Source: Pedobacter sp. MC2016-14
GTDB lineage: Bacteria > Bacteroidota > Bacteroidia > Sphingobacteriales > Sphingobacteriaceae
DNA length: 64,000 bases
Assembly (NCBI RefSeq): GCF_020991475.1
Contig: NZ_JAJMPA010000001.1
Location: 2,666,001-2,730,000, forward strand
Direction of reading: 5' to 3'
The position numbers and the translations under genes were made by a program. The notes below the pieces were generated by a model. It made no database searches. It saw only the letters and a program-made list of their open reading frames with translations, and had not been told where the DNA came from. Below, piece by piece: positions 21,641-33,204 of the stretch (position 1 is its first letter; each line of letters opens with the position of its first letter).

Positions 21641-21983
21641 ATCATCCAGATGGATGGTGATGGTTTTAACGTGTCCAGATGAGCTGGCATTTTTTTGTTT
21701 GATAAGCTATGTCGTTATGAAGCGGTCCTTGGTCAAGTGTATTTATCAGATTATCAGTGGTACAGGATGCCATCAAGATCAGTATGATGAGCAATTGAAG
21801 TTTATAGATATGCTACTCCAAAAATCTATGCAATTGGAACTGCAACGATATGGTGTATTTTATTGTCTTTTCGATACGGTGGGTTTTGCAAGACTGTTGA
21901 AACTGATGTTTAACTTTATACCAATACTGAGTAAGTAAGGATTATTTTATAAATTGCAGGCATTTATTTCAATTAATAACCAA
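21641..21983. other. Region with degraded coding sequence, leader of the Crp/Fnr gene
   Basis: No intact gene is visible. On the forward strand a stretch FDKLCRYEAVLGQVYLSDYQ (about 21696-21760) and, in another frame, DEQLKFIDMLLQKSMQLEL (about 21785-21840) look protein-like, as though one gene had been frameshifted. I do not recognise the family. The last 40 bases would hold the promoter of the Crp/Fnr gene. Confidence 0.35.
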
Positions 21984-22565
21984 ATGCACCAACAGCTCAT
22001 TAACTATATCAATAGTCACAGTACCTTGCCACTTACAGGTGTGGAGGAAGAACTGATCGTAGCTGGCTTTCAATACAAAAGGCTTAGGAAAAGGCAATAT
22101 TTTTTACAGCAGGGAGATGTATGCAAATATACCGGTTTCATTGTAAAGGGTGCAATGCGGCAATATACTGTAGATGAAAAGGGAGTAGAGCATATTGTGC
22201 ATCTTTTCATTGAAAATTATTGGGCAACCGACAGGGAAAGTATGATCATGCTGACCCCATCTGCCTATAATATTGATGCATGGGAAGAGGCGGAAATACT
22301 CACCATTACCAGAGCAGATATGCTTGACTTGATGAATAAAATACCTGCCCTGGTAGAGATGATACTTCTGATGGACGAAAGAAATGCTATTGCCAATCAA
22401 AGAAGGTTGAGTTCTACCATCAGCAGTACGGCCGAAAAGCGCTATGAGGAATTTTCCATTCACCACCCTCAGTTCATTCAACGGTTCCCGCAGCACATCA
22501 TTGCTTCTTACTTGGGTATTACTAAGGAAACTTTAAGCAGGGTAAGGAAACAGTCTGTCCGCTAA
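21984..22565 (+). CDS. Crp/Fnr-family transcriptional regulator
   Basis: 193 aa from the ATG at 21984 (the frame also opens at a TTG 30 bases earlier). An N-terminal cyclic-nucleotide-binding-like beta barrel (about 25-120, with FLQQGDVCKYTGFIVKG) is followed by a helix and a C-terminal helix-turn-helix. The recognition helix reads ITKETLSRVRK. The E-x-x-S-R arrangement is that of E. coli FNR, which contacts TTGAT-N4-ATCAA. No FNR-type cysteine cluster is visible, so oxygen sensing by Fe-S is unlikely. A perfect TTGAT-N4-ATCAA palindrome lies 29 bases after its stop and recurs before two further operons. Confidence 0.85.
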   Translation: MHQQLINYINSHSTLPLTGVEEELIVAGFQYKRLRKRQYFLQQGDVCKYTGFIVKGAMRQYTVDEKGVEHIVHLFIENYWATDRESMIMLTPSAYNIDAWEEAEILTITRADMLDLMNKIPALVEMILLMDERNAIANQRRLSSTISSTAEKRYEEFSIHHPQFIQRFPQHIIASYLGITKETLSRVRKQSVR

Positions 22566-22590
22566 CTCATTTAACTTTTGTTTTTTCCGA

Positions 22591-22620
22591 AACGTTGATT
22601 ATTATCAACGTTTTTTTTTA
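22591..22620 (+). promoter_or_regulatory. FNR-like palindrome / terminator-like hairpin, copy 1
   Basis: Nine-base arms AACGTTGAT / ATCAACGTT with a 4-base centre, then a T run. The core TTGATTATTATCAA (22595-22608) is a perfect FNR-type box. It can end the upstream regulator gene and also lies in the promoter of the SnoaL-like gene, 95 bases before its start. A CAATTTTG -7 element (22655-22662) begins 53.5 bp after the palindrome centre. Confidence 0.65.
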
Positions 22621-22654
22621 TCAAACCTCATCGTCAGGCAGCCTGTTTCTGTTG

Positions 22655-22662
22655 CAATTTTG
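22655..22662 (+). promoter_or_regulatory. -7 element of the SnoaL-like gene
   Basis: CAATTTTG, one mismatch to TAnnTTTG. A conserved TCATCGT (22628-22634) sits 27 bases upstream, as in copies 2 and 3 of this promoter type. Confidence 0.55.
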
Positions 22663-22703
22663 TATTGTCAAATCAATAAAGATTAAAACAAAATTTAAAG
22701 ACA

Positions 22704-23138
22704 ATGGAAACTACCAATTCAAAAAATAGCAGTGCCGTACAACTTCTGCGCAACAGTTTAGATACTTTTTTAGCCAAGGATATGAAAGGCTGGTCCGAGC
22801 TTTGTGCTGAGGACATAGTGGCCGAATTCCCATTTGCCCCGGAAGGTTCACAGGCCAGGTTTGAGGGCAAAGAAGCACTTTATGCTTATCTGAAGGACTA
22901 TCCAAGTTATATCGATGTAAAATCATTGCCAACTTTAAAAATCTATGGAACTGATGATGTGAACGTTGCGGTTGCAGAGTGGAGCGCTTCGGGTGTGGTC
23001 ATAGGCAATGGTAATCCCTATGAAATGAGCTATGCCACTTTCGTGACCTTCCGTGACGGCCTTATTGTGAACTACCGTGAATACTGGAACCCACAGGCCT
23101 TTCAAAAAGCGATGAGCGGTGGAAGTTTTGCTGAATAA
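22704..23138 (+). CDS. SnoaL-like / nuclear transport factor 2 family protein
   Basis: 144 aa with the cone-shaped NTF2-like pattern: an N-terminal helix (LLRNSLDTFLAKDMKGWSEL), then FEGKEALYAYL, then strands ending DGLIVNYREYWNPQAF. Members are small hydrolases, isomerases or binding proteins, so the reaction cannot be given. It forms a single-gene unit behind the first FNR-like promoter. A weaker inverted repeat at 23158-23188 follows and may end transcription. Confidence 0.82.
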   Translation: METTNSKNSSAVQLLRNSLDTFLAKDMKGWSELCAEDIVAEFPFAPEGSQARFEGKEALYAYLKDYPSYIDVKSLPTLKIYGTDDVNVAVAEWSASGVVIGNGNPYEMSYATFVTFRDGLIVNYREYWNPQAFQKAMSGGSFAE

Positions 23139-23157
23139 GTGATATCAACTAACTGAC

Positions 23158-23188
23158 AGAAATCGTTGATGTCTGTTAACGGTTTCTG
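23158..23188 (+). terminator. Imperfect hairpin after the SnoaL-like gene
   Basis: Arms AGAAATCGTT / AACGGTTTCT with one imperfect pair, 20 bases after the stop codon. The core CGTTGAT..GTTAACG resembles the FNR-like palindromes but is not symmetric. Confidence 0.45.
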
Positions 23189-23195
23189 TTTATAT

Positions 23196-23247
23196 AATGA
23201 AGTAAATCCACAATCAATTAACAAATTGATTGTGGATTTACTTCATT
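23196..23247. repeat. 24-bp perfect inverted repeat with 4-base loop
   Basis: The arm at 23196-23219 is the exact reverse complement of 23224-23247, around the loop AACA. The right arm includes the stop codon of the HxlR remnant. It could act as a terminator for either strand, but no long T run follows and the stem is longer than other terminators in this window. Confidence 0.8.
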
Positions 23248-23383
23248 TTGCCATAGCTTCCAGCACAAGTAACAGTGTTTTGCCTTTTTCAGACAAATAA
23301 TATTCTACCTGTAGAGGAACAATTTCTTTTGCCTTCCCGAACACCATGCTATCATAATATTCAATATTTTTCAAATTAATCGC
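23243..23383 (-). pseudogene. HxlR-family regulator, C-terminal remnant
   Basis: Reverse-strand frame ending at 23243 reads NIEYYDSMVFGKAKEIVPL, then QVEYYLSEKGKTLLLVLEAM and AK. The VEYxLSEKGKTLL...LEAM part is the typical HxlR/MarR-like C-terminal wing and helix. The rest of the gene, including the helix-turn-helix, is absent: upstream DNA changes at once into the second FNR-like promoter. It is a remnant and not expected to work. Confidence 0.65.
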
Positions 23384-23418
23384 AAATCCGTTGACATTTA
23401 TCAACGGATTTTTTTATC
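23384..23418 (+). promoter_or_regulatory. FNR-like palindrome, copy 2
   Basis: Eleven-base perfect arms AAATCCGTTGA / TCAACGGATTT around CATTTA, then a T run. The core TTGAC-ATTT-ATCAA is at 23391-23404. The palindrome centre (23397.5) lies 53.5 bp before the -7 element at 23451. It precedes the DoxX-pirin-OYE-azoreductase unit. Confidence 0.65.
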
Positions 23419-23450
23419 ATAACTCATCGTTTCGGGCCTTGATAAGGGCG

Positions 23451-23458
23451 CATCTTTA
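23451..23458 (+). promoter_or_regulatory. -7 element of the doxX-pirin unit
   Basis: CATCTTTA, two mismatches to TAnnTTTG, with TCATCGT 27 bases upstream (23424-23430) exactly as in copy 1. Confidence 0.5.
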
Positions 23459-23490
23459 CAAAATCAAACAACTAAAATTGAAACAGGAAA

Positions 23491-23853
23491 ATGAAAACAA
23501 ATAAAATTATTTATTGGACGACTACAGGGATTATTACGTTAATGATGCTATTCAGCGCATTCGGCTACTTCACCAATCCCGATATGAAAGCGGCATTCGT
23601 CCATTTGGGCTTTCCAGATTATTTCCGGATTGAGCTGGGTATTTTAAAAGTAGTGGGCGCCTTGGCCCTGATCCTTCCAATGGTTCCAGAAAAGGCAAAG
23701 TCATTTGCCTATTTCGGTTTTGTCCTTACCTTCATTTCAGCATTTATAGCCCATATTGCCAGTGGAGACCCTATTTCTGTAGCCGTTATGCCGATCATCT
23801 TTCTGGTGATCTTATTGGTTTCCTATGTGTTCTATCGTAAAGTAAAAGCATAA
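23491..23853 (+). CDS. DoxX-like membrane protein
   Basis: 120 aa with four hydrophobic helices (about 8-26, 46-66, 70-90, 95-115). The DoxX-type pattern includes FRIELGILKVVGALALILP. DoxX proteins are linked in other bacteria to quinone or thiol redox balance, for example with SodA and SseA in Mycobacterium; the role here is inferred. It is first in a unit with pirin (10 bases to the ATG at 23864), OYE and a broken azoreductase. Confidence 0.82.
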   Translation: MKTNKIIYWTTTGIITLMMLFSAFGYFTNPDMKAAFVHLGFPDYFRIELGILKVVGALALILPMVPEKAKSFAYFGFVLTFISAFIAHIASGDPISVAVMPIIFLVILLVSYVFYRKVKA

Positions 23854-23863
23854 TTTTTTGAGC

Positions 23864-24730
23864 ATGAAAAAGGCAACCAGCTTTTCGACAAAGGGCAGCT
23901 CCACCTCCGTTGGCCCTTTAAAGATCCAACGAATGCTACCGAACCGTTATGCAGGTCAGGTTGGGCCGTTTGTGTTCCTTGATTACGTAGCGCCAGCGAT
24001 AAAGAACGAAATCACAAAAAAGGGGATGGGTGCGCATCCACATCGGGGCATTGCCACCTTGACCTATATCCTGCAAGGTGAAGTGGAACATTTTGACAGC
24101 GCGGGTAATGGCGGTAAAATCTTTTCGGGCGGTGCACAATGGATGAAGGCTGGTAACGGAATTATCCATGACGAAAATTTCAATTATGATAGCCAGACAG
24201 ATAGCAAATACATCCAGGGCTTCCAGTTTTGGATCAACCTGCCGGCAAAAAACAAAGCCGAAAAGCCCGAGCACATTGCCATTCAGGCCAATGAAATTCC
24301 ACAAATAGCGTTGGAAGATGAAAGTGGCTGGCTAAAAATAATTGTAGGCAATTACGAAGGATTGAGTTCGAAAATCCCAAATTATGCGGAGCAGTTTCTC
24401 TACCACGTCCAACTGAAGGCAGGAAAGCAGTTTCTGTTAGAAATAGCAGATAAAATCGAAGTGGCTGCATTTCTGCCTACAGCAGGTGCGCAATTGAATA
24501 ACGCCGAATTTCAAAAGGGAGAATTTATAGAATTTGATAAGAATGCAGGCGAAATCGAGCTAAGAAATACTTTTGGGCAGCCTATCGATATCATCCTTTT
24601 TGGAGGAGAGGCTTATACAGAACCCATTGTTGCAGAAGGTCCTTTTGTAATGAATACGAAAGAGGAAATTATTGGTGCCTATCATGATTTTTATGCTGGG
24701 AAATACGGCGAGATCAATTTAACAGCATAG
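23864..24730 (+). CDS. Pirin-family protein
   Basis: 288 aa from the ATG at 23864; a TTG two codons earlier is also open. The bicupin fold is marked by GAHPHRGIATLTYILQGEVEH, with metal ligands in the HPHRG and EH motifs, and GGAQWMKAGNGIIHDE. Bacterial pirins may act as quercetin dioxygenase-like enzymes or as redox-sensing binding proteins; neither can be decided here. The C-terminal cupin ends with IILFGGEAYTEPIVAEGPFVMNT, which is typical. Confidence 0.9.
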   Translation: MKKATSFSTKGSSTSVGPLKIQRMLPNRYAGQVGPFVFLDYVAPAIKNEITKKGMGAHPHRGIATLTYILQGEVEHFDSAGNGGKIFSGGAQWMKAGNGIIHDENFNYDSQTDSKYIQGFQFWINLPAKNKAEKPEHIAIQANEIPQIALEDESGWLKIIVGNYEGLSSKIPNYAEQFLYHVQLKAGKQFLLEIADKIEVAAFLPTAGAQLNNAEFQKGEFIEFDKNAGEIELRNTFGQPIDIILFGGEAYTEPIVAEGPFVMNTKEEIIGAYHDFYAGKYGEINLTA

Positions 24731-24791
24731 ACGAACATTAGGGTTTTTTAAACCGCAACGACTTAATAAAAATGATTAACATATCTTAAGC

Positions 24792-25883
24792 ATGAAACTT
24801 TTACAAACAAATAAATTAGGAAACCTACCGCTGAAAAATAGTGTGGCCATGGCCCCAATGACTCGTGCCCGTGCAGAAGGCAACGGAACGGTAAACGAAT
24901 CTACCGTTACTTACTATACACAGAGAGCAAGTGCAGGTTTAATCATTTCAGAGGGCATCAATATTTCTGAACAGGCCGTTGGTAGCCCCTACACGCCAGG
25001 GATTTATACGAAAGAACAAATTGAAAGCTGGAAAAAAGTCACTGATTCCGTTCATGGAAAAGGCGGTAAGATTTTTGCCCAGCTTTGGCATACAGGTCGT
25101 GTTTCGCATTCAGTAGATAAAAATGGGGTATTGCCAGTTGCGCCGTCAGCGTTGGCCATTGTAGGACAGCAGCATTTTTCTTCGCAAGGACCTAAAGATT
25201 ACGAAGTACCAAGAGCCCTGGAAACCGCGGAAGTAAAACGGGTGGTTCAAGATTATAAACAGGCAGCCATTAACGCCATTGAAGCAGGTTTTGACGGCGT
25301 TGAACTGCACGCAGCAACAGGATATTTGCCCAATCAGTTTTTGGCAGAAAGTTCAAATATCCGTACAGACGAATACGGTGGCAACATTGAAAACCGCAGC
25401 CGTTTTATCCTGGAAGTAATGGAGGCAATAACAGCTGCTGTTGGCGAAGGAAAAGCGGGAATCAAGTTATCGCCAAGCATTCCGTACAATAGCATTATAG
25501 AAAGCGATCCGATTGCAGCCTATTCTTATGTGATAAAAGAATTAGACAAGTTGCCTTTGGCATACATCCAATTGATGAACCCGTTATTTCTGCCCGAAGA
25601 AGGGTTTGGGCAATATCCAAAAGACGTAATGGGAACATTTGGAATTTTAACCCAGCATACGGTAATTGCCAACGTTGGATATACAAGAGAAACTGCCGAA
25701 GCCGAATTGCAAAAAGGCATTGCCAAAATCATTTCTTTCGGTGTTCCGTTTATTGCCAATCCAGACCTTATAAAACGATTTGAACTAAACGCTGAACTTA
25801 ACCAGCCCGACCGTTCTACCTTCTACGGCGGCAATGAAAAAGGATATATCGATTATCCGTTTTTAGATCAATCAGTTGTCTAA
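24792..25883 (+). CDS. Old yellow enzyme family flavin reductase
   Basis: 363 aa FMN-dependent alkene reductase of the NemA/OYE type, reducing activated double bonds and electrophiles with NAD(P)H. Motifs: [11 protein letters not shown] (19-28), [10 protein letters not shown] (94-103), RTDEYGG and the C-terminal phosphate site [15 protein letters not shown]. The substrate-anchoring pair is unusual: H173-A-A-T176-G-Y178 instead of H-x-x-N/H-x-Y. The stop codon lies inside the azoreductase pseudogene start (8-base overlap). Confidence 0.9.
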
Positions 25884-26369
25884 AATGAAAATCTTACACA
25901 TCATATCAAGCCCGAGGGGCGAAGCTTCGCAAACCATTCAACTAAGTGAGGCTATCATTCAAAAATTACAAGCTAAAAATAGCAATGCATTTGTTACTGT
26001 TCGAAATCTTACCACAGATCCGTTGCCTTATATTGCAGGTCATCATATCCAATCATTTAATACGCCAGCGGAAAACCGTTCCGAAGAACAGTTGGAAGCC
26101 ATTAAGCTTTCGGATGAACTGCTTGCTGAAGTAAAAAATGCAGCTATAATTGTAATCGGAGCCCCAATGTACAATTTTGGGATTCCTGCTTTCTTGAAAA
26201 GCTGGATAGACCATTTGGCAAGAGCTGGCGTTTCTTTTACCTATACAGCTGATGGCCCTGTTGCTTAATCAAAGGAAAAAAAGTTTATTTGGCTATTGGA
26301 ACAGGTGGTGTTTATAGCGAAGGAGACTATTCATTCCCAGTCAGCTTAATTACAAAGTATTTAAATTAA
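25876..26369 (+). pseudogene. azoR: FMN-dependent NADH-azoreductase, frameshifted and truncated
   Basis: The first 130 residues are a clear flavodoxin-fold azoreductase ([38 protein letters not shown]). The frame stops at 26266-26268 after DGPVA. Inserting one base there restores [20 protein letters not shown] in a +1 frame, which ends at 26369. About 45 C-terminal residues of the family are missing. The end of the reading frame falls exactly at the start of the third FNR-like palindrome, suggesting that the 3' part was replaced by a recombination event. Confidence 0.85.
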
Positions 26370-26403
26370 AATCCGTTGACATTTGTCAATAGATTTTTTT
26401 ATC
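26369..26403 (+). promoter_or_regulatory. FNR-like palindrome, copy 3
   Basis: Arms AAATCCGTTGA / TCAATAGATTT with two mismatched positions, then a T run. The core TTGAC-ATTT-GTCAA is at 26376-26389, centre 26382.5, which is 53.5 bp before the -7 element at 26436. Confidence 0.65.
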
Positions 26404-26435
26404 GTTTGTCATCTCTTTAAGCTTTTCATCTAAGG

Positions 26436-26443
26436 TAATTTTG
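26436..26443 (+). promoter_or_regulatory. -7 element of the GMC oxidoreductase unit
   Basis: TAATTTTG is a perfect TAnnTTTG. A related TCATCTC begins 27 bases upstream (26409), in register with the other two promoters. Confidence 0.65.
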
Positions 26444-26471
26444 GAGTATTAAATCATTAAAATTTAAAGAT

Positions 26472-27983
26472 ATGTCATCGCAAAATTCAACCACAAAAAG
26501 ATATGATTTTATCATTGTAGGAGGCGGTTCTGCAGGAGCGGTAATGGCTTCACGTTTGAGCGAAAATAAAAGCAAAAATATTTTATTAATAGAAGGTGGA
26601 AACGCTTATCAGTCTTGGGATTATCCAAGTGCAATCTACAGCGCCAACAGTCCTGGGGGAGATGCAGCACACAATTGGGGCTTCCAATCGGAACCAACCC
26701 CTTATGGCAACAAAATAGACTTGCCAAGAGGAAAAGTATTGGGTGGAAGTTCGGCCATCAACGGAGCGGTTGCCTTGCGGGCAAGACCAGAAGATTTTAA
26801 GAAATGGAATCTTCAGGGCTGGTCTTATGAAGAAATGCTTCCTTATTTTAAGAAATTAGAATCAAGCGATTCAGGCGATAAAGAACTTCACGGGTTTGAT
26901 GGGCCTTTGCCCGTTCGCCAATTGTTACGAAGCGATTTAACTTCGGTTCAAAGAGCATTTGTAGATGCAACAGTTAATATTGGTTACAAACTTATCGAAG
27001 ATTTTGATAGCAAAGATGCCAATGGTGTAGGCCCTTACCGAATGAACGTAGTAAACGGCGTTCGTGTAAACACAGGAATGGCCTATCTGCCCAATGAGGT
27101 GCGCAAACGTGAAAACCTGACTATTTTACCTCAGTCTATTGCTGACCGTGTTTTGTTCCAGGGTAAAAAAGCAATAGGCATTTTGCTCGCAAACGGAGAA
27201 GAGTTTTTTGCTAATGAAATCATCCTTTCGGGAGGTACTTATGGAAGTGCAGCTATCTTACTTAGGTCTGGTATTGGAACAAAGGCTGATTTGGAACAAT
27301 TATCAATACCTGTTGTCGCCAATCTGCCTGTTGGAAAAAATGTGAAAGACCATCCTTTTCACTATGCAGCTTTTGCGCTGAATAAAGAAATGGTTGAAAG
27401 CAAAACACCTCCAATTGCTGCTAAGTTATGGACTTCAGCGTTTGATACGGATGAACTGGATATTCATATTACAGCTACCCATCTTTTTCCAGATGAATAC
27501 AGTCCCACACAAAGCGGATTTGTTTTAGGAGTAGCAGTGACCACGCCCAATTCAAAAGGAAAAGTTTGGATAGAAACAACCGATCCAAACGTAAATCCAA
27601 AAGTTGACCTTAATTTCCTCGATGATAAGGAAGATGCCAGAAGAATGATCGAGGGCGCCAAGATTGCAAGACGTATTGCTGCCACTGCTCCTTTTTCTGA
27701 ATTTATCCATTCCGAAATCGCCCCGGGTATTGCAGTGCAAACAGATGAGGATCTGGAAGTGGCCATCAAACAGCATATAGCAAGCTATGCACACCCTACA
27801 AGTAGCGCTCCAATGGGAGAATCCAGTTCGAAAGAAGCCGTAGTGGATTTAGAAGGCAGGGTGCATCAGGTAGAATCTCTTCGCGTAGTGGATGCCTCTA
27901 TTTTTCCGGATATCATTTCAGCAGCTACCAACATCACTGTAATTGCGGTTGCAGAAAAAATAGCCGATAAAATCTTGAAATAA
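26472..27983 (+). CDS. GMC-family oxidoreductase (choline dehydrogenase-like)
   Basis: 503 aa FAD-dependent alcohol oxidoreductase. The FAD-binding motif is FIIVGGGSAGAVMASRLSE (14-32), followed by the GMC signature GKVLGGSSAINGAV. The C-terminal catalytic region has SYAHPTSSAPMG with the active-site His and ends VVDASIFPDIISAATNITVI. No signal peptide is seen, so it should be cytoplasmic. The substrate alcohol is unknown. The next gene (a broken hydrolase) begins one base after its stop. Confidence 0.92.
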   Translation: MSSQNSTTKRYDFIIVGGGSAGAVMASRLSENKSKNILLIEGGNAYQSWDYPSAIYSANSPGGDAAHNWGFQSEPTPYGNKIDLPRGKVLGGSSAINGAVALRARPEDFKKWNLQGWSYEEMLPYFKKLESSDSGDKELHGFDGPLPVRQLLRSDLTSVQRAFVDATVNIGYKLIEDFDSKDANGVGPYRMNVVNGVRVNTGMAYLPNEVRKRENLTILPQSIADRVLFQGKKAIGILLANGEEFFANEIILSGGTYGSAAILLRSGIGTKADLEQLSIPVVANLPVGKNVKDHPFHYAAFALNKEMVESKTPPIAAKLWTSAFDTDELDIHITATHLFPDEYSPTQSGFVLGVAVTTPNSKGKVWIETTDPNVNPKVDLNFLDDKEDARRMIEGAKIARRIAATAPFSEFIHSEIAPGIAVQTDEDLEVAIKQHIASYAHPTSSAPMGESSSKEAVVDLEGRVHQVESLRVVDASIFPDIISAATNITVIAVAEKIADKILK

Positions 27984-27984
27984 C

Positions 27985-28540
27985 ATGGGAAATACCAATT
28001 TTGATAAAAACGCAAGCACTTCCTTACCTCAAGGTTATAAAATGGATAGGGAGGTTAGTGAGGCCATGGGGAATTTTATGGCACAGCACCCGCTAGGGGC
28101 ATTTCCTGAAAAGCGCGACTGGCTAGAGCTGAGAGATACTTTAAATGAGTTTTATGCCAATCCAAGTCAGCAATTTCCTGTTCATCCCGAGGTTAACAAA
28201 AGAGATTTTACTATCAAGACAAGAGATGGGAAAGAGAAATTACCCGGGTTGGACGGCATCACTTGGCGCAGAAAGAGGTGGCAATAACAACTCGGCAATA
28301 GCGGCACCTGGCCGTCTTACACAGTTCGAAGGCTTGGCACCGGCTTTTATTTCGGTTGGTGATTTGGATATTTTCCGAAACGAAAGCTTGGATTATGCCG
28401 GAAAATTGGCAAAAGCAGGCGTTCCGATTGAGTTCCATTTACATGCGGGAGTACCGCATGGCTTTGATTCTATTGCGCCCGATGCCGCCATATCCAAAAG
28501 AGCTATGGCAGATTACGTTCGTGTAATCAACTCCGTTTAA
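27985..28540 (+). pseudogene. Alpha/beta hydrolase (HSL-type esterase), internally deleted
   Basis: The first frame (27985-28287) gives an esterase N-terminus ending KRDFTIKTRDGKEKLPG. The other frame (to 28540) gives the matching C-terminus: AAPGRLTQFEGLAPAFISVG, then DLDIFRNESLDYAGKLAKAG and VPHGFD, which contains the catalytic Asp and His. The centre with the oxyanion HGGG and the nucleophile GDSAG is missing, and the two halves are out of frame. An internal deletion of roughly 100-150 codons explains this. It cannot be catalytic. Confidence 0.85.
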
Positions 28541-28575
28541 AGTATAATTTATAAAAATTGATAAATAAAATAATT

Positions 28576-29322
28576 ATGTCACACTCCCAACAAAAAGTAG
28601 CGCTCATTACAGGAGCTGCCACAGGAATAGGAAAGGCAATTGCTATCCGTTTGGCCAAAGACGGAATCGCCATAGCCGTTAATTATATAGGTGACCCAAC
28701 ATTGGCGATAGGGGTGGTCAAAGAAATAAAAGATGCGGGTGGGACGGCGGGTGCATTTGAAGCAAATGTAGGTGCTGTCCCGGAAATCATCAGCCTTTTT
28801 GATAATGTGATCAGTGAATTTGGAGGGATAGATATTGTGGTAGCCAATGCAGGTATTGCTAAGATGGGAATCCCCATTGCTGAAGTTACCGAAGCTGATT
28901 TCGACCGCATCAATGCTGTAAATTATAAGGGGACCTATTTTGTGCTGCAGCAAGCAGCCAAACACGTTAGAAACGGCGGAAGAATTATTCAGATTTCTTC
29001 AACAAGTTCGCTATATCCGGCAGCTGGTTTGGGAATTTATTCCCCAAGTAAAGCCGCTGGTAAAGTAGTTACCGAAATATTGGCACAAGAACTTGGTCCA
29101 CGCCAAATATCCGTAAATAGTGTTTTCCCAGGGCCTACAAGAACACCTTTGATGGAAAAAGAAGCTTCGAAGGAAGAACTTGAAAGGATTGGACAAAGTA
29201 TGAACCTTGGAAGAATGGGCGAACCGGAAGATATCGCAGGTGTGGTTGCTTTTCTAGCCGGTCCAGAGGGTGGCTGGGTAAATGGACAGCAGATTATTGC
29301 TAATGGCGGTGGGAGAATTTAA
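28576..29322 (+). CDS. SDR-family oxidoreductase
   Basis: 248 aa from the ATG at 28576; the frame is open six codons further upstream. A classical short-chain dehydrogenase: cofactor motif TGAATGIG, NAG motif in VVANAGIAKMG, catalytic Ser with Y-x-x-x-K in IYSPSKAAGK, and a C-terminal GGWVNGQQIIANGGG. It is of the 3-oxoacyl-reductase/glucose dehydrogenase-like type. It lies in the GMC-hydrolase-SDR-LLM unit. Confidence 0.9.
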   Translation: MSHSQQKVALITGAATGIGKAIAIRLAKDGIAIAVNYIGDPTLAIGVVKEIKDAGGTAGAFEANVGAVPEIISLFDNVISEFGGIDIVVANAGIAKMGIPIAEVTEADFDRINAVNYKGTYFVLQQAAKHVRNGGRIIQISSTSSLYPAAGLGIYSPSKAAGKVVTEILAQELGPRQISVNSVFPGPTRTPLMEKEASKEELERIGQSMNLGRMGEPEDIAGVVAFLAGPEGGWVNGQQIIANGGGRI

Positions 29323-29334
29323 CTTAAAAATACG

Positions 29335-30372
29335 ATGGAAATAGGAATAGACAGTTTTGCATCTGGCACCATTCAAAAAAACGCTGATGGCGCAAATATA
29401 TTAGAAGAATTATTGACCAGGATAGAATATGCCGACCAGGCGGGGCTTTCCAGTTTTGGTATTGGCGAACACCATCGTCGGGAATTTTTTGATTCCGCTC
29501 CGGCTGTTATTTTGGCCGCCGCTGCAGCAAGAACCAAAAAAATCAGGCTTGCCAGTGCCGTTACTGTTTTGAGTGCAGCTGATCCGGTTCGTGTTTTTCA
29601 GGAGTTTGCAACACTGGACCTCATTTCAAAGGGAAGAACCGATTTAGTGGTAGGACGCGGTTCTTTTACGGAGTCATTTCCGCTTTTTGGATATAACCTT
29701 CAGGATTACGATCAACTTTTTATGGAGAAACTGGAATTATTAATCCAAATTCAAAATAATGAAAAGGTCACCTGGTCGGGAAAATTCAGGCAGCCTTTAT
29801 ACGACCAACCCGTATATCCAAGACCATTTAATGATCAACTGCCGTTGTGGATTGGCGTCGGAGGTACTACCGCATCATTCGTAAGAGCAGGCCAATTGGG
29901 GATTCCGCTGATGATTGCCATTATAGGCGGAGAAACTAGACGTTTTAGAGGTTTGGTAGATTTATACAGAGAAGCGGGCATAAAAGCAGGGCATTCGCCG
30001 GAAAAATTAAAAGTAGGAGTACATTCTTTAGGTTATGTTGCGACCAGTAGAACTAAGGTGTTGTCTGATTATTATCCTGGTTATGCCGAAACCTTTACCA
30101 GAATGGGAAGGGAAAGAGGTTGGCCACCGATTACAACAGCTCATTTCGACGCGCAAGTAGGCAGGAACGGTGCATTGCTAGTTGGTGAACCAGATGAGGT
30201 TGCGGATAAATTACTACGTTTCAGTGAAGATTTGGGCGGTGTATCCAGATTTACGTTTCAAATGGACAATGCAGGCTTAACGCATGCCCAATTGATGGAA
30301 TCTATCGAATTAATTGGCAGTAAGGTAATTCCTATTGTTTGTACTTCTCGACCTGGTATCATCATAAAATGA
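29335..30372 (+). CDS. LLM-class flavin-dependent oxidoreductase
   Basis: 345 aa luciferase-like monooxygenase with TIM-barrel pattern: FGIGEHHRREF near the N-terminus, VTVLSAADPVRVFQEFATLD, and RTDLVVGRGSFTESFPLFGY. The C-terminal segment PDEVADKLLRFSEDLGG is typical. It uses reduced flavin supplied by a reductase; the substrate is unknown. Its stop codon overlaps the next start (ATGA). Confidence 0.9.
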   Translation: MEIGIDSFASGTIQKNADGANILEELLTRIEYADQAGLSSFGIGEHHRREFFDSAPAVILAAAAARTKKIRLASAVTVLSAADPVRVFQEFATLDLISKGRTDLVVGRGSFTESFPLFGYNLQDYDQLFMEKLELLIQIQNNEKVTWSGKFRQPLYDQPVYPRPFNDQLPLWIGVGGTTASFVRAGQLGIPLMIAIIGGETRRFRGLVDLYREAGIKAGHSPEKLKVGVHSLGYVATSRTKVLSDYYPGYAETFTRMGRERGWPPITTAHFDAQVGRNGALLVGEPDEVADKLLRFSEDLGGVSRFTFQMDNAGLTHAQLMESIELIGSKVIPIVCTSRPGIIIK

Positions 30373-30939: not shown

Positions 30940-31521
30940 ATGAAAGAGCTGCTCAAACAAAATATCTCCAATCATATTTCTCTGTCCGAAGAAGAAACAG
31001 AAGGATTTTGTAACTTGTTTGAGCGGAAATTGATCAAAAAAAAGAGTTTTTTGTTGAGGGCAGGGGAAATTTGCAGGTTCGAGGGATTTGTGACTAAAGG
31101 ACTTTTTAGGGTTTACCATATCGACAAGGATGGGTTTGAACAAGTCCTCTATTTTGCTACAGAAAACTGGTGGGTTACAGATATCGACAGCTTTACAAAT
31201 GAAATTCCCTCACAACTTTTTATAGAGGCTTTGGAGGACAGCGAAGTACTCCTGATTTCAAAAAAAGATAAAGAATTTGCCTATACGAGTTTGCCCAGAA
31301 TAGAGAAATTATTTCGGGTAATGACCCAAAAAACGCACACTGCACTGCAAAGAAGAATGATCGACAGTATGAGCAAAAACGCAGAGCAGCGCTACCTTGA
31401 GTTTTCAGAAAAATATCCACAGCTTGTTCAGCGCCTCTCCAATATTCAGGTCGCAGCTTATTTGGGAATCACCAATGTCTTTTTAAGCAATATCCGAAAG
31501 AAAATCACGACCAAAAAATAA
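30940..31521 (+). CDS. Crp/Fnr-family transcriptional regulator
   Basis: 193 aa, cNMP-binding-like barrel (FLLRAGEICRFEGFVTKGLFR) plus C-terminal helix-turn-helix. It is a paralogue of the regulator at 21984, but its recognition helix reads ITNVFLSNIRKK and lacks the Glu and Arg of the FNR-type E-x-x-S-R motif. It should therefore bind a different DNA site or bind poorly. It is a separate unit 64 bases after the nitroreductase-like gene, with no FNR-like box in front of it. Confidence 0.85.
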   Translation: MKELLKQNISNHISLSEEETEGFCNLFERKLIKKKSFLLRAGEICRFEGFVTKGLFRVYHIDKDGFEQVLYFATENWWVTDIDSFTNEIPSQLFIEALEDSEVLLISKKDKEFAYTSLPRIEKLFRVMTQKTHTALQRRMIDSMSKNAEQRYLEFSEKYPQLVQRLSNIQVAAYLGITNVFLSNIRKKITTKK

Positions 31522-31623: not shown

Positions 31624-32253
31624 ATGAGCAAACTGATTTATATAATGGATCCGCTTTGTGGATGGTGCTATGGAAACAGTTCCAACACACAAAAATTGTA
31701 TGATAAATATAAAAATGTGCTTGATTTTGAAATTTTACCTGCGGGAATGTGGACTGGTACCAATGCCAGGAAACAATCCAAACAAATGGCACAATTTATC
31801 AAAAAGCACGACCCGCAGGTACAGCAAACTACAGGAACTGAATTCGGTAAAGAGTATTTTGAATTTATAGAAAATGAAGAGGTTGCTTTGGATAGCGAAG
31901 TGCCGTCAAGAGCCATTGTGAGCATAAAAAAACTATGGGCTTCGCAAGCAATTCCATTCGCTGTTGAAGTGCAGAAAGCAAGATACTGGTACGGAAAAGA
32001 CCTAAATGAGGACGAAACCTATTTGAGGATCTGTGAAAAGTTTGGATTGGACAAAACGGAGTTTCTACAAGTATTCCACTCTGAAATAATTAAAAAAGAA
32101 ACGCAGCAAACCTTTGCTTTAGCGAAACAATACGCCAGTTCTTATCCTACGCTTTTGGCAGAAAAAGAAGGCAAATATTATGTCTTGGAGCAAGGCTATG
32201 CCAGTTTTGAAACCATCTCAAATAGAATAGATGAAATTCATTTATTAAACTAG
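31624..32253 (+). CDS. DsbA-family (FrnE-like) protein
   Basis: 209 aa thioredoxin-fold protein with active-site C12-G-W-C15 in MDPLCGWCYG, a helical insertion and no signal peptide, so it is cytoplasmic. FrnE-like DsbA proteins act as disulfide isomerases or glutathione/thiol-linked reductases in oxidative stress. A short intergenic space with a CAGCTTTG element (31576-31583) suggests its own promoter. It precedes an MBL-fold gene and a SnoaL-like lipoprotein gene. Confidence 0.87.
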   Translation: MSKLIYIMDPLCGWCYGNSSNTQKLYDKYKNVLDFEILPAGMWTGTNARKQSKQMAQFIKKHDPQVQQTTGTEFGKEYFEFIENEEVALDSEVPSRAIVSIKKLWASQAIPFAVEVQKARYWYGKDLNEDETYLRICEKFGLDKTEFLQVFHSEIIKKETQQTFALAKQYASSYPTLLAEKEGKYYVLEQGYASFETISNRIDEIHLLN

Positions 32254-32280
32254 TTTAAAGTTTTTTCATTCAAATGACAC

Positions 32281-32313: not shown

Positions 32314-33204
32314 ATGAAAAAATTGATTTCAACAGTAGCACTAACTACATTAATTTTATTGAATATGGAAACACAAGCACAAAGTTTCAAGACCATTGAA
32401 GCAAGCAATTTGAAATTGGAAGTTTACAACGCTTCAGAAAACAGTTTCGGGGTAGCATCGGTAATCGTATCGGGAAAAACAGATGCCGTATTGATTGATG
32501 CTCAATTTACTTTGGCAGATGCCGAAAAAGTAGCGCAGGAAATAAAAGCAAGTGGCAAAAAATTGACCACTATTTATGTTTCCCACGCCGATCCTGATTA
32601 TTATTTTGGATTGGAAGTTTTCAAAAATTACTTTCCTGATGTGGTAGCCTATGCTTCACCAGCTTCGGTAGAAGCCATTAAGGCTACGGCTCAAAAGAAA
32701 TTAGACGTTTGGGGCGAAAGATTAGGAAAAGCGATTACGTCTAACGTGGTATTGCCTCAGGTCTTGAAAGGTAACAGCATTGAATTGGAGGGGCAGAAAT
32801 TAGAAATTGTTGGCTTGGAAGAGTTTCCGAAAAAAACTTTTGTATGGATTCCAAGCATCAAAGCGGTTGTTGGGGGAATCAATGTTTTTGGTACCACTTT
32901 CAATCTTTGGATGGCAGATGCACAAACGCCTGAAGCCCGCAAACAATGGATAGCTGTTCTGGATAAAATCGAAGCTTTGCATCCGGCAATTGTAATTCCC
33001 GCTCATGCAAATAATGCAAGTCCATTCGATGTTTCCGCTGTAAAACATACCAGAAGTTACATCCAGTTTTACGAAGAAGCATTGAAAACCAACAAAACTT
33101 CTGAAGAATTGATCAAAGCGATCAAGGCAAAATATCCTGCGCTAACTTTTGAAACTGCATTGCAGATTGGTGCCAAGGTAAATACCGGCGAAATGAAATG
33201 GTAA
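32314..33204 (+). CDS. Secreted MBL-fold protein with altered metal site
   Basis: 296 aa. A signal peptide (MKKLISTVALTTLILLNMET, cleaved near AQA) points to the periplasm. The metallo-beta-lactamase fold is recognisable, but the usual HxHxDH motif reads H91-A-D93-P-D95-Y96, so two histidine ligands are lost. This HADPDYYFG form belongs to a subgroup of the family, and its metal content or activity cannot be inferred. The start codon of the next gene overlaps its end. Confidence 0.82.
   Translation: MKKLISTVALTTLILLNMETQAQSFKTIEASNLKLEVYNASENSFGVASVIVSGKTDAVLIDAQFTLADAEKVAQEIKASGKKLTTIYVSHADPDYYFGLEVFKNYFPDVVAYASPASVEAIKATAQKKLDVWGERLGKAITSNVVLPQVLKGNSIELEGQKLEIVGLEEFPKKTFVWIPSIKAVVGGINVFGTTFNLWMADAQTPEARKQWIAVLDKIEALHPAIVIPAHANNASPFDVSAVKHTRSYIQFYEEALKTNKTSEELIKAIKAKYPALTFETALQIGAKVNTGEMKW

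Follow-up and report, generated by a model that had tools for sequence, protein, structure and literature searches.

Three promoters in a 64,000-bp stretch of the Pedobacter sp. MC2016-14 genome (contig NZ_JAJMPA010000001.1, positions 2,666,001 to 2,730,000; hereafter the window) share a module in which an FNR-like palindrome stands at a fixed distance from the -7 element, and they lie beside the gene of a short Crp/Fnr-family regulator that we call Crp1. These palindromes are very probably the operators of the adjacent Crp1, from which the protein would activate the three promoters in a class I-like manner as a local regulon. Sequence comparison establishes the module, its conservation, the covariation of recognition helix with half-site and the reliance of the box on a neighbouring regulator; by the same comparison, the switch recurs beside Crp1 relatives across the phylum Bacteroidota.

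Three promoter modules beside Crp1

The palindromes have the form GTTGAY-N4-RTCAA, with centres at 22601.5, 23397.5 and 26382.5, and in all three the -7 element starts 53.5 bp from the centre (22655, 23451 and 26436). A TCATC motif, beginning at 22628, 23424 and 26409, precedes the -7 element by exactly 27 bp in every case. A first-pass annotation of this DNA had described these palindromes, distances and motifs, and they are present where it placed them. The pattern TTGAYNNNNRTCAA matches the window at these three places only (0.61 expected; none of 100 shuffles reached three). When the three leaders are aligned without gaps, 22 of the 61 columns past the T-tract are identical in all, compared with 5.1 +- 2.1 in shuffles, and this excess arises at zero offset only. 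The flavobacterial -7 box spans -12 to -5 (PMC9723704), which places the operator centres at a predicted -65.5, in agreement with the earlier suggestion of an activator site near -65.

21984-22565, plus strand: Crp1, short Crp/Fnr-family regulator, helix ETLSRVR (Pfam cNMP_binding 4.3e-9; 3DN7 5.6e-37)
22594-22609, unstranded: operator 1, GTTGATTATTATCAAC, doubling as a hairpin stem with a T-tract behind it (sequence, module match, folding)
22619-22633, plus strand: conserved block of module 1 (TATCAAACCTCATCG region), lying 17 to 31 bp past the centre of the operator
22655-22662, plus strand: -7 element 1, CAATTTTG (fixed offset in relatives; PMC9723704); predicted start near 22667
23390-23405, unstranded: operator 2, GTTGACATTTATCAAC, also a hairpin stem followed by a T-tract (sequence, module match, folding)
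23415-23429, plus strand: conserved block of module 2 (TATCATAACTCATCG region)
23451-23458, plus strand: -7 element 2, CATCTTTA (fixed offset in relatives); predicted start near 23463
26375-26390, unstranded: operator 3, GTTGACATTTGTCAAT, also a hairpin stem followed by a T-tract (sequence, module match, folding)
26400-26414, plus strand: conserved block of module 3, TATCGTTTGTCATCT
26436-26443, plus strand: -7 element 3, TAATTTTG (offset); predicted start near 26448

The textbook -7 sequence occurs only at the promoter of the GMC oxidoreductase gene (TAATTTTG), the other two being CAATTTTG and CATCTTTA; TTTTA is found in Flavobacterium DoxX promoters at the offset that matches -7 element 2. 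Matches to sigma-70-type promoters at the palindromes (TTGACA ... TATCAT) were dismissed, as they are no more frequent than in shuffled sequence and the phylum uses the -7 box. Rfam returned tRNAs only and no known RNA element.

The open frame of Crp1 begins at a TTG at 21954, with the likely start at the ATG at 21984. Its N-terminal cyclic-nucleotide-binding-type domain scores above the cut-off of Pfam PF00027 (4.3e-9), and among solved structures 3DN7 is nearest (5.6e-37), followed by FNR (about 1e-5). In the C-terminal helix-turn-helix, KETLSRV aligns with VETISRL of FNR, whose E..SR residues read TTGA. The chain stops seven residues past ETLSR, as it does to within a few residues in the relatives and also in 3DN7, and Crp1 therefore has no wing, the β-hairpin that would follow the recognition helix. 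Because the homology spans the whole length, we keep Crp1 in the CRP/FNR superfamily and regard winglessness as a subgroup trait. Crp1 has one cysteine, Cys57, which is kept in 80 of 88 aligned proteins; an iron-sulphur FNR would be expected to carry four Fe-S cysteines, so that the oxygen-sensing FNR proper was rejected, the NCBIfam FNR model also giving only 32.9 bits for a cut-off of 228. The cAMP-dependent CRP proper was rejected on the half-site, which is GTTGA and not TGTGA.

Within the 5.04-Mb genome the palindrome alone is at background, with 34 occurrences and 31 in the reversed control. A 78-bp profile of the full module, made from sequence only and from 28 sites, finds three strong matches, all at the window locus (E 3.5e-17, 9.1e-17 and 1.3e-12), and the next best (E 0.004 and 0.011) are the window palindromes on the opposite strand. 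The three window sites sit in the training set and their scores are partly a matter of construction; the informative part of the search is the absence of further strong matches. This restriction to one locus at the strong-score level supports the first-pass reading of the sites as a small local regulon. Two other ETLSR paralogues in the genome, which holds nine Crp/Fnr paralogues with several of the ETLSR type, have three such palindromes nearby (p 4e-4). One of these, at C3:302148, precedes an SDR gene (paralogue at C3:304202), and the other two, at C4:4034 and C4:4057, directly precede the paralogue at C4:4096. Two weak profile matches elsewhere in the genome (L099 and L100, E above 0.05) were discarded for lack of a palindrome. 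At C1:1144078 (E 0.013; L097:1470-1580), an ESLSR paralogue and a YceI gene flank the downstream block and TTTTG, but there is no GTTGA box.

Operator, spacing and recognition helix among relatives

We collected 71 loci through protein similarity to Crp1 only, with no criterion on the DNA. When 5-mer inverted repeats were counted without bias in the DNA between their genes, GTTAA-N6-TTAAC came first (30 loci), ahead of TTGAT-N4-ATCAA and GTTGA-N6-TCAAC with 18 loci each. In the closer group of loci, GTTGA-N6-TCAAC occurs 30 times for 0.4 expected (permuted half-sites, median 0) and the GTTGA inverted repeat is almost confined to spacing 6, while GTTAA-N6-TTAAC occurs 31 times for 3.4 expected in the other group. 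The start codon mostly follows 80-105 bp beyond the sites, which are found in both tandem and divergent arrangements.

The distance to the promoter is also regular. Measured from the palindrome centre, TTTG stands at +57 in 23 of 43 GTTGA-type sites, the runner-up offset accounting for only 5, and all 28 GTTAA-type sites have it at +56. Loci L034, L035, L036, L037 and L040 show a second arrangement in which TAnnTTTR stands at +29/+30; it is less evident in L032. From the predicted starts, the centres would be near -65.5 in the first arrangement and near -41.5/-42.5 in the second, which correspond to class I-like and class II positions. Two traits of the CRP/FNR superfamily can thus be assigned from sequence: by association, a symmetric operator of the TTGA-N6-TCAA type, and a putative fixed position of activator to promoter, seen as TTTG at +57/+56 (class I-like) and as TTTG at +33/+34 or TAnnTTTR at +29/+30 (class II-like). 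Across nine genera the mean identity is 0.78 for the operator, 0.65 for the T-tract, 0.63 for the +17 to +31 block and 0.72 for the -7 element, the last being partly due to selection because these genera were picked for TTTG or TTTA at +57; the identities of the block and the operator flanks are unaffected by that choice. The spacer and the upstream DNA are each at 0.27, which indicates selection on the elements rather than copying of whole leaders.

Searching in the converse direction, from module to regulator, gave 12 further matches in 59 genomes. Six of them have a Crp/Fnr gene no more than 1.5 kb away, a nearness expected by chance for about 0.7% per match (p 7e-11). The box precedes DoxX in all four loci that have an ETLSR regulator alongside (the window, L023, L024 and L027) and in none of 13 DoxX homologues from other genomes of the genus without such a regulator nearby. 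By this comparison the presence of the box tracks the neighbouring regulator and not the target gene.

Recognition helix and half-site covary. GTTGA or TTGAY is found with 24 of 30 ETLSR regulators and GTTAA with none, whereas the EFLSK regulators have GTTAA in 28 of 40 cases and GTTGA in two (Fisher 2e-13, uncorrected for relatedness). All seven VFLSN regulators have TTAAACNNGTTTAA nearby, giving a TTAAAC half-site, and TTAAACTAGTTTAA occurs near all seven proteins, with TTTG at +34 (+33 in the window). Replacement of R by K or N at the helix position that contacts G in FNR accompanies the loss of G from the half-site, and a correlation of helix and base is known in the Crp/Fnr family (PMC1274295). 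The nominal p-values are too strong, because the loci are related (six are from Flavobacterium) and represent few evolutionary events. The proposal that the Crp/Fnr protein at 21984 reads the sites is supported by the box beside its homologues, the covariation, the converse search and the dependence on the regulator.

The VFLSN type is represented in the window by a second regulator, Crp2, and its candidate site.

30940-31521, plus strand: Crp2, second short Crp/Fnr regulator, helix VFLSN
32244-32259, unstranded: proposed Crp2 operator, ATTAAACTAGTTTAAA, with TTTG at +33 (class II-like); near all seven VFLSN regulators

A metallo-beta-lactamase-fold gene (32314-33204) lies downstream of the proposed operator, with a predicted transcription start at about 32293, and TTAAACTAGTTTAA has a single match in the Pedobacter genome, at 32245-32258. 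The combination of a VFLSN regulator with a TTAAACTAGTTTAA site is also found in six Flavobacterium loci.

We propose the following mechanism, in which binding by Crp1, activation and the transcription starts are predicted. The two recognition helices of a Crp1 dimer, of the FNR-like E..SR kind, would read GTTGAY-N4-RTCAAC; bound near -65.5, the dimer would activate three distinct promoters with a class I-like geometry. Each promoter would run from the operator through a T-rich tract and a ATCATATCTCATCG-type block in the -33 region to a -7 box at fixed offset. Oxidoreductase and detoxification-type genes would make up the resulting local regulon, and the signal may be a redox condition or an electrophile, a guess from the target genes and the conserved Cys57, which is a candidate sensor only.

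Weighing of alternative explanations

Several observations weigh against this assignment. Two of the three -7 boxes in the window differ from TAnnTTTG, and the palindrome by itself shows no genome-wide enrichment. Many of the loci are related, and the contrast of ETLSR with EFLSK reflects for the most part a single split. No exact site lies within 1.5 kb of six of the 30 ETLSR regulators, and 12 of the 40 EFLSK regulators lack a GTTAA site. Paralogues could also share sites, and Crp1 might then be one reader among several. We nevertheless consider it unlikely that the palindromes are Crp/Fnr operators at which the protein represses, or at which another paralogue is the main regulator. Nine paralogues, several of them ETLSR-type, leave room for such a reader, and some homologues have the box before their own gene, which fits either sign of control. 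The predicted positions near -65.5 and -41.5 are those at which activators of the CRP/FNR family bind, while repressor sites usually overlap the core promoter, and the strong module is found at the window locus only.

The window palindromes fold at -11.8, -13.4 and -9.9 kcal/mol (z -4.1 to -5.9) with a T-tract behind each, and all three thus have the stable hairpin and T-tract of an intrinsic terminator. Among the collected sites, those at most 60 bp 3' of a gene have longer stems (p 0.01) and T-tracts (p 0.002) than the others, an excess that is mostly driven by Flavobacterium and weaker without it. It would be possible to argue from this that the palindromes are merely intrinsic terminators of the upstream genes and that the fixed spacing is incidental. 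We find that very improbable, since the box is also found in divergent and distant settings where the hairpins are weak, and the letters of the half-site track the recognition helix. Within the Pedobacter genome, a fourth site, C3:302148, has no clean T-tract and the site at 23391 is not directly behind any gene of its strand. The EFLSK-type sites, although tandem, form weak hairpins (median -4.5 kcal/mol) with position and -7 spacing unchanged, and termination therefore cannot explain the conservation. The first-pass annotation, largely borne out here, had held that terminators alone would not account for the spacing, which is indeed kept where hairpins are weak; the terminator reading that it argued against is also true in part. 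Termination is probably an added role at some sites, in tandem contexts, where an operator close behind a gene would use its stem and T-tract to terminate the upstream transcript as well.

That the three leaders are recent duplicates, alike through copying and not through function, is hardly credible. Their ungapped alignment across about 100 bp would suit it, but between genera the spacer and upstream DNA are at chance identity while operator, block and -7 element are conserved, and the pattern is shared by unrelated promoters in many genera. Recombination sites or mobile cassettes were also considered for the hairpins, as two sites abut broken genes, and were dropped on account of the fixed promoter distance.

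Probable target genes, neighbourhood and related systems

The genes behind the three probable operators of Crp1 are as follows.

22704-23138, plus strand: target 1, SnoaL-like protein (SnoaL_2 1.2e-14)
23491-25883, plus strand: target unit 2 (Pfam), DoxX 23491-23853, pirin 23858-24730 and Old Yellow Enzyme (OYE) 24792-25883
26472-30372, plus strand: target unit 3 (Pfam), GMC oxidoreductase, broken alpha/beta hydrolase, SDR and luciferase-like monooxygenase

Taking the window and the relatives together, SnoaL-like, DoxX, pirin, OYE, GMC and SDR genes stand behind boxes, as do genes for a zinc-type quinone/alcohol dehydrogenase, an aldehyde dehydrogenase, NmrA and YceI, and in four loci the regulator's own gene. 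This set suggests the handling of small reactive or reducible compounds.

Two of the operators abut broken genes. The C-terminal part of an HxlR-family regulator (23240-23375, minus strand; Pfam HxlR 3.4e-4) has its broken end against operator 2, and an azoreductase-type flavodoxin-fold gene (25876-26368) is interrupted by a stop at 26266 and truncated immediately ahead of operator 3. The alpha/beta hydrolase gene at 27985-28540 is split across two overlapping frames and is apparently broken. A further, strong hairpin 3' of the SnoaL gene (23155-23190, -18.4 kcal/mol) holds GTTGATGTCTGTTAAC, a hybrid of GTTGA and GTTAA half-sites; neither a promoter block nor a gene follows it directly. In the cluster (window 21954-24000; L021-L027), the regulator is 76-78% identical between the Pedobacter genome and Flavobacterium, and none of the 40 other genomes searched has the SnoaL gene at E 1e-20; the cluster was therefore probably transferred between orders.

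The window operators share the TTGA core and the 4-bp gap of the FNR/DNR box (TTGATnnnnATCAA). The recognition helix of FNR/DNR aligns E-T-x-S-R with Crp1, and class I and class II-like positions are common to both, but FNR/DNR has the Fe-S cysteine set and other target genes, whereas Crp1 has a single cysteine, is wingless and would act on the Bacteroidota -7 promoter. HcpR of delta-proteobacteria, which controls hcp and frdX, has the consensus wyTTGACnnnnGTCAArw (PMC1274295). This consensus is nearly identical to the window operator, yet the putative targets of Crp1 are instead SnoaL, DoxX, pirin, OYE, SDR and GMC genes; neither hcp nor frdX is among the target genes found near sites, although no genome-wide search for hcp was made. 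For the Crp-like BT4338 of Bacteroides, of the same phylum, an operator TATGTTnTAnAACATA was predicted by footprinting in a global sugar regulon (PMC3878776); its consensus and global reach differ from the local Crp1 regulon with its one fixed spacing. PDB entry 3DN7, a cyclic nucleotide binding regulatory protein, has Crp1's length and wingless end and no known target, and its helix, EYLSE, implies a probably different DNA specificity. While the FNR box and activation by Crp/Fnr proteins are already known, the proposed operators for the short clade appear to be new and are unusually regular; we found no description of them in the open-licence literature, and an earlier account may exist elsewhere.

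A broader proposal, which we hold tentatively and regard as rather doubtful, is that these sites define a Bacteroidota promoter class dependent on the wingless Crp/Fnr clade. The palindrome would serve both as operator of the next unit and as tandem terminator of the preceding gene, often that of the regulator, the ATCATATCTCATCG-type block would replace the -33 element, and the helices ETLSR, EFLSK and VFLSN would read GTTGA, GTTAA and TTAAAC, respectively.

Bacteroidota genomes hold many short Crp/Fnr paralogues, nine in the present case, and the module would supply several of these at one stroke with their operators, promoters and target genes. It also predicts the residues that set specificity and could serve in the annotation of regulons elsewhere, in further genomes. 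Should the broader proposal be true, the scheme of three helices and three half-sites would amount to a readable code for a large uncharacterised family of paralogues.

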